A stretch of 64,000 bases of DNA from Shinella zoogloeoides. Lineage in GTDB: Bacteria > Pseudomonadota > Alphaproteobacteria > Rhizobiales > Rhizobiaceae. The notes beneath the pieces were generated by a model. That model was not told where the DNA came from and searched no databases. It worked only from the letters and a program-made list of their open reading frames with translations. Positions 1,978 to 5,947 of the stretch are shown here, one piece after another (the stretch's first letter is position 1; each line of letters starts with the position of its first letter). The translations under genes and the position numbers were made by a program. Location: positions 62,001 to 126,000 of the forward strand of contig NZ_QNUJ01000013.1 in the NCBI RefSeq assembly GCF_003574625.1, given 5' to 3'.

Positions 1978-4900
1978 TTAAACGAGTTCCACGTCCAGCA
2001 CGCCCGGCGTCGAGCGCATGGCTGCGGCGATTTCGGGAGAGATGCGGAAGCGTTCGTTTAGCTCCACCTCGATCTCGCGCTGGCCGCTTTCCTTGATGAC
2101 GATGAAGGAGACGAGGCCGTCGCCCTTGGTGTTGAGGTGGGCGGCGATGGAGCGCAGCGGGCCGCTGTCGCGCACATAGACGCGCAGCGCCTTCTGGGTC
2201 TGGAGCGATTCCTCCTCCAGCGAGCGCAGGGTCTGGATGCGCAGGCCGATGCCTTCCGGCCGCTCTTCCGCCTGCACCGTCATGACCAGCGACTTGCCGG
2301 CCTCCAGCAGGTCGCGATACTGGTTCAGCATTTCGGAGAACAGCACCGCCTCGAACTGGCCGGAGGAATCGGAGAAGGCGACGATGCCCATCTTGTTGCC
2401 GGTGCGGGTCTTGCGCTCCTGCTTCGACGTCACCGTTCCCGCGAGCCGGCCGGCGGTGGCGCCGCGCTTCACCGCGGCGGAGAAATCGCCGAAGGTCTGC
2501 ACGCGCATCTTGGCAAGGATCGGCGCATAGGTGTCGAGCGGATGGGCGGAGAGGTAGAAGCCGAGCACCTGGAATTCGCGGTGCAGCTTCTCCGAGGCGA
2601 GCCAGGGCGTATAGGAGGGCAGCGTGATGACCTCCGGCCCGGTCGCCGCCCCCATGCCGAAAATGTCGCCCTGCCCGCTCGTCTTGTTCTCCTGCGCGCG
2701 CTGGGCGGCGCCGAGCAGGCGGTCGAGGCCGGCGATCATGGCGGCGCGGTCATGGCCGAAGCAGTCGAAGGCGCCGGCGACGATCAGGCTTTCGAAGACG
2801 CGGCGATTGACGAATTTCGGATCGATGCGCTCGCAGAAATCCTCAAGGCTCCTGAAGGGCGCGTCGCCCCGCACCTCGACGATGTGCTGCACGGCCGCCT
2901 CGCCCACGCCCTTGATGGCCGCGAGCGCATAATAGATGCGGCTCTCGCCGGTCTCGAAATGGGCGAAGGACGTCTGGACGGAGGGCGGGACCACCTCGAT
3001 GCCGAGCCGCCCGGCATCCTGCCGGAAGTCGTTCAGCTTGTCCGTGTTGGACATATCGTAGGTCATCGACGCGGCGAGGAACTCGACCGGGTAATGCGCC
3101 TTCAGATAGGCCGTCTGGTAGGAGACGATGGCATAGGCGGCGGCGTGCGACTTGTTGAAGCCGTAGTTGGCGAACTTGGCGAGCAGGTCGAAGATCAGGT
3201 CGGATTGCGGCTTGGAAACGCCGTTCTTCACCGCACCGTCGACGAAGCGGGCGCGCTGCTTGTCCATCTCCTCCTTGATCTTCTTGCCCATGGCGCGGCG
3301 CAGGAGGTCGGCCTCGCCGAGCGAGTAGCCGGAAAGGACCTGGGCGATCTGCATCACCTGTTCCTGGTAGACGATGACGCCCTGCGTTTCCTTCAGCAGG
3401 TGGTCGATCATCGGATGGATCGATTCGATCTCCTCCTCGCCGTGCTTGCGGGCGTTGTAGACCGGGATGTTCTCCATCGGGCCGGGGCGGTAGAGGGCCA
3501 CCAGAGCGATGATGTCCTCGATGCAGTCCGGCCGCATGCCGATCAGCGCCTTGCGCATGCCCGCGCTTTCCACCTGGAACACGCCGACCGTCTCGCCGCG
3601 CGAGAGCATCTCGTAGGTCGGCGGATCGTCGAGCGGCAGGCTTTCCAGCTTCACCTCGATGTTACGCTTGCGGATGAAATCGACGGCGGTCTTGAGGACG
3701 GTCAGCGTCTTGAGGCCGAGGAAGTCGAACTTCACGAGGCCGGCCTGCTCCACCCATTTCATGTTGAACTGGGTGACCGGCATGTCGGAGCGCGGATCAC
3801 GGTACATCGGCACCAGCTGCGACAGCGGCCGGTCGCCGATCACGATGCCGGCGGCGTGGGTCGAGGCGTGGCGGTAGAGGCCCTCGATCTTCTGGGCGAT
3901 GTCGAGCAGGCGCGCGACGACGGGCTCCTTCTCGGCCTCCTCCTGCAGTTTCGGCTCCTCCTCGATCGCCTTGTAGAGCGGCGTCGGATTGGCCGGATTG
4001 TTCGGCACGAGCTTGCAGATCTTGTCGACCTGACCATAGGGCATTTCGAGCACGCGGCCGACGTCGCGCAGCGCCGCGCGGGCCTGGAGCGAACCGAAGG
4101 TGATGATCTGCGCCACCTGCTCGCGCCCGTATTTCTGCTGCACGTAGCGGATCACCTCTTCGCGGCGGTCCTGGCAGAAGTCGATGTCGAAGTCGGGCAT
4201 CGAGACGCGTTCCGGATTGAGGAAGCGCTCGAAGAGCAGCGAAAAGCGCAGGGGATCGACGTCGGTGATGGTCAGCGCATAGGCGACGAGCGAGCCCGCG
4301 CCGGAGCCGCGGCCCGGCCCGACAGGGATATTGTGCTGCTTGGCCCATTTGATGAAGTCGGCAACGATGAGGAAGTAGCCGGGGAACTTCATGCGCTCGA
4401 TGACACCGAGCTCGAAATCCAGCCGCTCGCGATAATCCTCCTCGCTATAGCCGGGCGTCAGGCCGAGCAGCGCCATGCGGCTCTCCAGACCCTCCACGGC
4501 CTGCCGGCGCAGTTCCGCCGCCTCGGCGCGTTCGGCCTCCTCCGGGTCCGCCGTCGCGCCGGTGAAGCGCGGCAGGATCGGCCCGCGCGTCTTCAGCACG
4601 AAGGAGCAGCGCCGGGCGATCTCCACCGTGTTCTCCAGCGCCTCCGGCAGGTCGGCGAAGAGCGCCGCCATGTCCTTGCGACTCTTGAGGTAATGGTCCG
4701 GCGACAGGCGGAAGCGGTTGTCGTCCGACACCATGGCGTTGTGCGCCACGGCCATGAGCGCATCGTGGGCATCGTAATCGTCAGGCGCCGGGAAGAAGGG
4801 CTCGTTGGTCGCCACCAGCGGCACGTCCCGCGCATAGGCAAGCTCGACCATGCGCCGCTCGTGCTGCCTGTCGTAGCGCCCGTGACGCTGCAACTCGATA

Positions 4901-5472
4901 TAGAGCCGGTCGCCGAAGACGCGCTTCAGCGAATCGAGACGGGCTTCTGCGACAGCCGGCTGGCCGGCGAGGTAAGCCATGTCGACCGGGCCGCCCCGCG
5001 CCCCGGTAAGGGCGATCAGCCCCTCCGTCCCCTCTTCCAGCCAGCGATAGGCGATGTGGATCGCCTGGTTGCCCTCACCGCCAAGATAGGCGCGGCTGAC
5101 GAGGTCGACGAGCCGCGCATAACCGGCATCGCTCGCCGCCAGCACCACGATGGACGGCAGCTTCTGGAGATGTGCCTGCGGGCCGCGCCGTTCCCCCTCG
5201 CCTTCGTCTTCCATGTCGATGGAGAGCTGGCAGCCGATCAGCGGCTGGATGCCCTCGCCGACCGCCTTCTGCGAGAATTCGAGTGCGGCGAAAAGATTGT
5301 TCGTGTCGGTGATGGCGATCGCCGGTTGCTGATCTGAAGTCGCCTTGCCGATGATCTTCTTGATCGGCAGGGCGCCTTCCAGCAGCGAGAAGGCCGAATG
5401 CACGCGCAGATGCACGAATTGCGGCGTCTCCGCGATCTTCCCGTCGTCCGTTCTGGGTGCCTCGTCCGCCAT
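1978..5472 (-). CDS. dnaE: DNA polymerase III subunit alpha (replicative)
   Basis: The 1,164-residue product matches the usual length of replicative DnaE (E. coli about 1,160). The PHP domain starts near residue 18 (FVHLRVHSAFSLLEGALP). The polymerase core carries PDFDIDF at about 426-432, holding the catalytic aspartates, and GPGRGSGAGSLVAYAL just before it. A tandem helix-hairpin-helix region and an OB fold (near AGTVTSKQERKTRTGNKMG, about 1,020-1,040) follow. The protein copies DNA as the catalytic subunit of the holoenzyme. It stands alone on the minus strand. The small SOS-type gene 119 bp upstream on the same strand could read into it. It is the replicative form, not the error-prone DnaE2, because no imuA/imuB genes are adjacent and the length fits. 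Confidence 0.97.
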   Translation of the reverse strand: MADEAPRTDDGKIAETPQFVHLRVHSAFSLLEGALPIKKIIGKATSDQQPAIAITDTNNLFAALEFSQKAVGEGIQPLIGCQLSIDMEDEGEGERRGPQAHLQKLPSIVVLAASDAGYARLVDLVSRAYLGGEGNQAIHIAYRWLEEGTEGLIALTGARGGPVDMAYLAGQPAVAEARLDSLKRVFGDRLYIELQRHGRYDRQHERRMVELAYARDVPLVATNEPFFPAPDDYDAHDALMAVAHNAMVSDDNRFRLSPDHYLKSRKDMAALFADLPEALENTVEIARRCSFVLKTRGPILPRFTGATADPEEAERAEAAELRRQAVEGLESRMALLGLTPGYSEEDYRERLDFELGVIERMKFPGYFLIVADFIKWAKQHNIPVGPGRGSGAGSLVAYALTITDVDPLRFSLLFERFLNPERVSMPDFDIDFCQDRREEVIRYVQQKYGREQVAQIITFGSLQARAALRDVGRVLEMPYGQVDKICKLVPNNPANPTPLYKAIEEEPKLQEEAEKEPVVARLLDIAQKIEGLYRHASTHAAGIVIGDRPLSQLVPMYRDPRSDMPVTQFNMKWVEQAGLVKFDFLGLKTLTVLKTAVDFIRKRNIEVKLESLPLDDPPTYEMLSRGETVGVFQVESAGMRKALIGMRPDCIEDIIALVALYRPGPMENIPVYNARKHGEEEIESIHPMIDHLLKETQGVIVYQEQVMQIAQVLSGYSLGEADLLRRAMGKKIKEEMDKQRARFVDGAVKNGVSKPQSDLIFDLLAKFANYGFNKSHAAAYAIVSYQTAYLKAHYPVEFLAASMTYDMSNTDKLNDFRQDAGRLGIEVVPPSVQTSFAHFETGESRIYYALAAIKGVGEAAVQHIVEVRGDAPFRSLEDFCERIDPKFVNRRVFESLIVAGAFDCFGHDRAAMIAGLDRLLGAAQRAQENKTSGQGDIFGMGAATGPEVITLPSYTPWLASEKLHREFQVLGFYLSAHPLDTYAPILAKMRVQTFGDFSAAVKRGATAGRLAGTVTSKQERKTRTGNKMGIVAFSDSSGQFEAVLFSEMLNQYRDLLEAGKSLVMTVQAEERPEGIGLRIQTLRSLEEESLQTQKALRVYVRDSGPLRSIAAHLNTKGDGLVSFIVIKESGQREIEVELNERFRISPEIAAAMRSTPGVLDVELV

Positions 5473-5591: not shown

Positions 5592-5678
5592 TCAGATGCC
5601 GAAAAGAATGACGGAGAAGCTGGCGACGAACATTGCCATGGAGGCGAATGCAGCAAGATCACGAAGAAAATCGGTCAT
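5592..5678 (-). CDS. 28-residue membrane miniprotein with a LexA box (candidate SOS peptide)
   Basis: ATG at 5678 to TGA at 5592 encodes 28 residues beginning MTDFLRDLAAF and ending SVILFGI. Residues about 9-28 are a single hydrophobic helix; the first eight are polar (D3, R6, D7). The Shine-Dalgarno is strong: GGAAAGGAAG ends 5 nt before ATG. A LexA-type direct repeat (5711-5725) lies 33-47 bp upstream, between a TTGACG -35-like hexamer (5729-5734) and the likely -10. Size, membrane character and SOS-type control recall the 29-residue Caulobacter division inhibitor SidA. I claim no sequence homology. dnaE starts 119 bp downstream. The function is inferred from context only. Confidence 0.65.
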   Translation of the reverse strand: MTDFLRDLAAFASMAMFVASFSVILFGI

Positions 5679-5710
5679 TTTGGCTTCCTTTCCCTTTATG
5701 TTTTTAGTTT

Positions 5711-5725
5711 GTTCTATTTTTGTTC
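5711..5725 (-). promoter_or_regulatory. LexA (SOS) box of the alphaproteobacterial type
   Basis: GTTC (5711-5714), seven bases, GTTC (5722-5725) matches the alphaproteobacterial LexA consensus GTTC-N7-GTTC exactly. It overlaps the presumed promoter of the 28-codon gene at 5592-5678: TTGACG on the minus strand is at 5734-5729, so LexA binding would block RNA polymerase. The plus-strand gene starting at 5948 is more than 220 bp away and is a less likely target. Confidence 0.72.
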
Positions 5726-5947
5726 ATGCGTCAACCGGTTTTCCACAGGCACCCGGAAAAACCTTCCGGCCGAAGATTTATGGTCGGGTCCAAACCAAGC
5801 ATGACGCGCAGAGGCCTTCGGGACTTTGCCGACGGTTCGCCGGCCGGCAGGCTGCTACTTCCTGTTGATTTCCCCCATGGGACGGGTGCAAACCGGCTGC
5901 ATGCTTTCGCGGCGTGCTTTATGGTCGCCTCCACGAATGGAGGAAAC

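Follow-up and report, generated by a model that had tools for sequence, protein, structure and literature searches.

A conserved SidA-like micropeptide gene behind a putative LexA box ahead of dnaE1 in Shinella zoogloeoides and other Rhizobiaceae

Introduction

To our knowledge, little is known about SOS division arrest in alphaproteobacteria beyond Caulobacter, including the polar-growing rhizobia. The closest described system is SidA of Caulobacter, which the available text of PMC4211646 describes as a 29-aa inner-membrane inhibitor that interacts with FtsW and FtsN and whose suppressors lie in FtsW/FtsI; the same text states that neither yneA nor sidA is related to sulA. According to the accessible part of PMC5189948, the sidA promoter is strongly induced by mitomycin C. 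Gene numbers found in excerpts of three other papers (dnaE is CC1926 and recN is CC1983 in PMC1839093, sidA is CCNA_02004 in PMC10769358, and recN is ccna_02062 in PMC12700426) give a numbering offset at recN; provided that the offset varies by no more than one or two, sidA would be the neighbour of dnaE, to within about a gene.

In Sinorhizobium meliloti, Ribo-seq revealed a translated small ORF, sORF25, in the 5′-UTR of dnaE1, and some of the 5′-UTR sORFs of this species could be upstream ORFs (uORFs), as stated in the available sections of PMC10117765. LexA and SidA have 0 occurrences in the main text of that paper. Literature searches joining SidA to rhizobia found no paper; their coverage did not extend to the first description of SidA (doi 10.1101/gad.2038911) or to the 2004 study of the LexA regulon (PMC545464). 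The string "sida" in PMC11031950, PMC10811719 and PMC9638019 stands for Sidak (statistics), not for SidA.

The present analysis concerns a window of 64,000 nucleotides of Shinella zoogloeoides DNA, in which a first-pass annotation made from the sequence had pointed to a very short ORF upstream of dnaE.

Results

The window carries on its minus strand an unannotated 28-codon ORF (5592..5678 with its stop; ATG at 5678-5676, stop at 5594-5592) encoding MTDFLRDLAAFASMAMFVASFSVILFGI, a predicted single-helix membrane peptide that profile matches and pN/pS identify as a SidA-like gene product. Its 28 aa and one hydrophobic helix, the latter judged from hydrophobicity alone, fit the size of about 29 aa expected for SidA. 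A Shine-Dalgarno sequence, GGAAAGGAAG (5684..5693, minus strand), is read 5 nt before the ATG. The putative LexA box (5711..5725, minus strand), supported by an exact pattern match and by its conservation, reads GTTCTATTTTTGTTC on the plus strand (GTTC-N7-GTTC) and GAACAAAAATAGAAC in the sense of the gene (GAAC-N7-GAAC). It sits in the promoter spacer, after a -35-like TTGACG (5729..5734, minus strand) whose TTGAC is conserved before the box in relatives, and it is followed one 11-bp step downstream by AAAC (5700..5703, minus strand), which may act as a degenerate third half-site. The first-pass annotation had claimed a 28-codon ORF with a strong Shine-Dalgarno at 5 nt, which is confirmed, coding being further supported by the pN/pS and the conserved stop described below. 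It had also placed the exact box between the TTGACG and an expected -10; the box and the -35 are found as described. The hexamer 17 nt from the -35 is CAAACT and a consensus scan finds no sigma-70 promoter. Therefore, the -10 is weak or unusual. The gene for the replicative DNA polymerase III alpha, dnaE1 (1978..5472, minus strand; TIGR00594, 1208 bits), begins 119 nt downstream of the micro-ORF, and no terminator-like site was found between the two in the window.

A search with the window peptide alone revealed matches in 56 of the 151 genomes of the family Rhizobiaceae at E<=0.1, and profile A1 matched 73 of the 151 at E<=0.01 (own genome included in both counts). This profile was built from 28 of the 30 fetched loci, with the omission of L026 and L032, whose peptides are the same as those of L027 and L033, respectively. 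Among the 30 best of the 56 matching loci (own included), dnaE is located downstream of the ORF in all cases. The coding test, done on 28 of these 30 rows because the starts of L035 and L038 differ, gave a pN/pS of 0.34 over 378 pairs (controls: 0.92 in frame +1 and 3.43 in frame +2). Furthermore, third codon positions are the most variable ones in the alignment, and a stop immediately follows codon 28 in 28/28 rows. At the level of sequence comparison, this ORF is a real gene under purifying selection.

More divergent members of the family show some variation, with R6 replaced by Q, H, Y or K. Among the weaker profile matches (E 1e-5 to 0.0042; 20 of 30 fetched), an exact box is present at <=130 nt in 18/20 loci. 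The two boxless loci are second SidA-like copies of 32 and 29 aa (L282 on G016:C27 and L284 on G078:C17, respectively), and both genomes also carry a boxed copy of the gene. No profile match was obtained in 78 of the 151 genomes; in 20 of these 78, the region upstream of dnaE contains a box and a hydrophobic ORF (n = 7), the peptide without an exact box (n = 1) or neither (n = 12). A plasmid search for the peptide gave no match.

Within the 64-kb window, the exact box is found once for 1.65 occurrences expected by chance, and genome-wide there are 122 exact sites compared to 60 for the reversed control pattern. As a lone box in 64 kb is within chance, the case rests on conservation and context. 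Of the 30 best Rhizobiaceae loci (own included), 27 show an exact box in the 100 nt preceding the ATG, always in the GAAC sense, compared to a mean of 0.18 and a maximum of 2 in shuffles and to 6 of 780 other 100-nt windows taken from the same 30 loci. This conservation removes the doubt about a chance box. The box is mostly positioned at -47 to -50 or at -36 to -37. Taking the first box of each locus, TTGAC is found 9-10 nt ahead of it in 21 of the 27 boxed loci, and a third half-site [AG]AAC one 11-bp step past it in the same 21 loci; some relatives, for example four Sinorhizobium loci, have a full triple GAAC array. More generally, GAAC half-sites recur with an 11-bp period ahead of the rhizobial micropeptide genes, in some cases as three consecutive copies (5700-5725 in the window, and relatives). 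The third half-site could allow the binding of a second LexA dimer or tune repression. The co-conservation of ORF and LexA box in rhizobia, which the first-pass annotation had put forward as a check, is thus found with dnaE in 30/30 loci and with the exact box in 27/30. The dnaE neighbourhood, in which it saw added interest, is the usual arrangement in the family and does not set this genome apart.

The same pattern precedes SOS genes of the genome to which the window belongs. Among the 122 sites, 19 surrounding regions were read, chosen mostly for AT-rich cores. According to their best NCBIfam names, the genes that follow an exact box include lexA, uvrA, dinB (DNA polymerase IV), uvrC and recQ, and a PcrA/UvrD-like helicase gene also follows one. 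The parE gene is probably also behind an exact box, the position of its start with respect to the box being uncertain. Three of these genes (uvrA, parE and that of the helicase) are truncated at the region end, and their scores are below whole-protein cut-offs. With the same exact GTTC-N7-GTTC as these SOS genes, the box upstream of the micro-ORF matches, by its sequence, the sites of the alphaproteobacterial LexA regulon. An exact GAAC-N7-GAAC was also observed ahead of the cytochrome oxidase accessory gene ccoG, at a distance of about 170 nt (L175, G000:C22:219700-222700), and may reflect LexA control or chance. Besides dnaE1, the genome carries two further DnaE-like genes (G000:C4:101646-104582 and G000:C21:356677-359625), both with an exact box at a distance of about 2 kb; they would fit what is expected for imuAB-dnaE2 cassettes.

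The gene was found in 32 of the 33 Sinorhizobium genomes, and both box and dnaE are present in all 30 fetched loci of this genus. Since Sinorhizobium carries the gene at this place almost without exception, sORF25, as located in the available part of PMC10117765, is probably this micro-ORF, an identity deduced from position. In other families of the order, dnaE adjoins the match in 19 of the 20 fetched loci (L075-L080, L083-L090, L093-L097, L099), which are best matches and not a random sample; 17 of these 19 have an exact box, in either sense, at most about 700 nt upstream. In one genus (g74; L081, L082, L091, L092 and L098), a box and a divergent peptide like MTDLIQDVASLVCMSAFLVSMAMWIGAM are present and there is no dnaE within 1.5 kb. 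From their translations, the neighbours at these g74 loci resemble lolC/lolD or other genes. Similarly, nine of the 20 weaker Rhizobiaceae loci have the box and no dnaE within about 0.7 kb. As box and peptide persist without an adjacent dnaE, the box stays with the peptide and not only with dnaE.

These distributions bear on two alternative explanations that start from dnaE1. The ORF might be an upstream ORF, or leader, that tunes dnaE1 translation, an explanation compatible with the 119 nt and the lack of a terminator-like site between the two genes, as well as with the translation of sORF25 in the dnaE1 5′-UTR and the proposal, in the available sections of PMC10117765, that some such sORFs could be uORFs. 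However, the peptide is conserved in its residues, its length and its hydrophobic helix, the five g74 loci and the nine weaker loci retain box and peptide with no dnaE next to them, and the RNA leader of the window folds no better than shuffles (z -0.01), so we regard a leader as unlikely. Alternatively, the LexA box might serve dnaE1 alone and the ORF be a non-functional passenger, given that dnaE1 could itself be the gene to which the promoter belongs and that nothing like a terminator intervenes; the purifying selection on the peptide and the loci where the box accompanies it away from dnaE make this explanation barely credible.

Four genomes labelled Caulobacter, located by way of an S-layer protein, contain a box, GAACATCTTGTGAAC, and a 29-aa ORF directly before dnaE, two of them sharing one peptide sequence. 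The one Caulobacter sequence tested, that shared by these two genomes, matches NCBIfam NF033228 (cell division inhibitor SidA) with 74 bits for a cut-off of 35, over 29/29 positions. No match to this equivalog model was obtained for the window peptide and one Sinorhizobium peptide, very weak matches being hidden by HMMER filters; this shows that, for a peptide of 28 residues, a sequence model derived from a single lineage can overlook relatives. For the family to which the Caulobacter genome G823 belongs, matches were obtained in 44 of 60 genomes (E<=0.1). All of the 30 loci fetched from these 44 are followed by dnaE, the peptide has 29 aa in 29 of them and 30 aa in one, and 22 boxes are exact, the other eight departing from the pattern at one position.

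The rhizobial profile A1 and the Caulobacter profile A2 (21 of the 30 Caulobacter-family rows, selected with a motif filter) give an ungapped alignment starting at Met1, with an hhalign probability of 88.9 and an E of 2.4e-6. An HMM of the rhizobial rows gives a median of 10.8 bits on SidA rows (28 of 10500 shuffles as high), and the reverse search, with a SidA HMM on rhizobial rows, gives 13.8 bits (4 of 14000 shuffles as high). Homology to SidA is also supported through a set of intermediates, A3; the weakest of the six cross-comparisons, that of the A2 HMM on A3 rows, has a median of 8.9 bits (51 of 6500 shuffles as high), and comparisons with A3 lean towards the R[DE].A motif, since 11 of its 13 rows passed a filter for this motif and two came from a separate source. 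Residues R6, S13 and F17 are invariant in A1 and A2, and A10 is invariant in A2 and present in 27/28 rows of A1; the unfiltered Caulobacter-family rows agree (R6 in 29/30, S13 in 30/30 and F17 in 30/30). Conservation by position correlates between the rhizobial and Caulobacter families (Spearman 0.54, p 0.004). No significant clustering of conserved positions on one side of the helix was seen (p about 0.09-0.14). By the profile evidence, the window peptide is a divergent SidA homologue outside the curated NF033228 family. The first-pass annotation had proposed a SidA-like membrane peptide as an analogy; the dnaE site, the box, the length and the ungapped similarity make the tie closer.

Given its small size, its hydrophobicity and the LexA box ahead of its gene, the product could also depolarise the membrane upon SOS induction, in the manner of TisB or DinQ, and thereby slow growth or generate persisters through loss of proton motive force. 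However, its homology, its genomic place and its length all connect it with SidA, and the charged residues of the window peptide lie only near its N-terminus (D3, R6, D7). Depolarisation, the other effect named in the first-pass annotation, finds no support in these data; we consider it improbable and favor a SidA-type peptide.

At the level of the class, a profile search retrieved 29 new loci of which only one (L054) is by dnaE. The profile alone being nearly useless at this distance, fixed regions upstream of dnaE were read instead: 100 regions from 69 families, 97 of them full length, hand-picked from 385 genomes of which 361 have DnaE. GAAC-N7-GAAC is present in the sense of dnaE in 26 of these 100 regions, compared to 0 for five other box patterns, three for the GTTC sense and 0 for the other strand. 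In 25 of the 26 boxed regions, belonging to 14 families, the box is followed after 15-110 nt by the start of a 25-50-codon ORF that includes a strongly hydrophobic stretch, compared to 4.3% for a hydrophobic micro-ORF after a random anchor. Recognised by box and hydrophobicity, these 25 micro-ORFs are candidate SidA relatives only; KD, RD or QD precedes the helix in 15 of them. The other 74 regions have no box in the sense of dnaE, which indicates that the box-micropeptide-dnaE unit is absent or has moved in much of the class. Overall, the survey suggests that the use of SidA-like peptides to arrest division in the SOS response is widespread in the class, and that annotation has largely missed it.

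Discussion

This work revealed a gene, a box co-conserved with it, purifying selection on its product, and homology and a shared site with Caulobacter SidA. We think it probable that this real gene encodes a SidA-type, LexA-repressed inner-membrane micropeptide, induced during the SOS response, that holds division through the late divisome. By analogy with SidA, LexA would bind the box, DNA damage would activate RecA, and the ensuing cleavage of LexA would open the promoter and allow induction of the peptide. Its single helix would insert in the inner membrane and bind the late divisome, most likely FtsW with its partners FtsI/FtsN, and the resulting division arrest would hold septum synthesis back until repair is complete. 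Homology to SidA implies that the rhizobial peptide should act like SidA. Furthermore, since no terminator-like site precedes dnaE1, read-through is likely and may also raise the level of the polymerase.

More tentatively, and with somewhat less confidence than doubt, sidA can be viewed as an ancestral alphaproteobacterial checkpoint gene, long kept as a LexA-controlled sidA-dnaE1 unit in which one promoter would both stop the septum and adjust the polymerase; the peptide, in step with its divisome partner, would have drifted fast enough to escape annotation in many families. The present data suggest an old and largely overlooked way to stop division upon DNA damage. Recognised through its position and its putative LexA box, this conserved SidA-like gene is a directly testable candidate for division arrest and offers a function for the uncharacterised translated sORF ahead of dnaE1 in S. 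meliloti. The peptide family also becomes available for the study of covariation with FtsW.

Several known systems resemble this locus to various degrees. Like the window peptide, Caulobacter DidA is a small division inhibitor with a single helix, and the effects of its overproduction are suppressed by changes in FtsW and FtsN, as reported in the available text of PMC4211646; however, it has 71 aa, is SOS-independent (DriD) and binds FtsN. Bacillus YneA, Staphylococcus SosA and E. coli SulA are likened to it by description only, from partial sources, as SOS-induced division inhibitors. E. coli DinQ, also compared by description only and from partial sources, is an SOS-controlled single-helix peptide but is paired with antisense RNAs. 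E. coli TisB is likewise an SOS-controlled single-helix peptide paired with an antisense RNA. Sinorhizobium meliloti sORF25 is, like the window ORF, located ahead of dnaE1, and is a translated sORF. The closest system is Caulobacter SidA (NF033228; CCNA_02004). The C-terminal half of the window peptide is unlike that of SidA, its N-terminus is MTD and not mostly M[IV]R, and position 19 is Ala, whereas Trp19 is found in 30/30 Caulobacter-family loci and is special to that family. However, both genes are located immediately upstream of dnaE behind a GAAC-N7-GAAC box, both peptides have 28-29 aa with one hydrophobic helix and align without gaps, and they have in common M1, R6, A10, S13, A15, F17 and V18.
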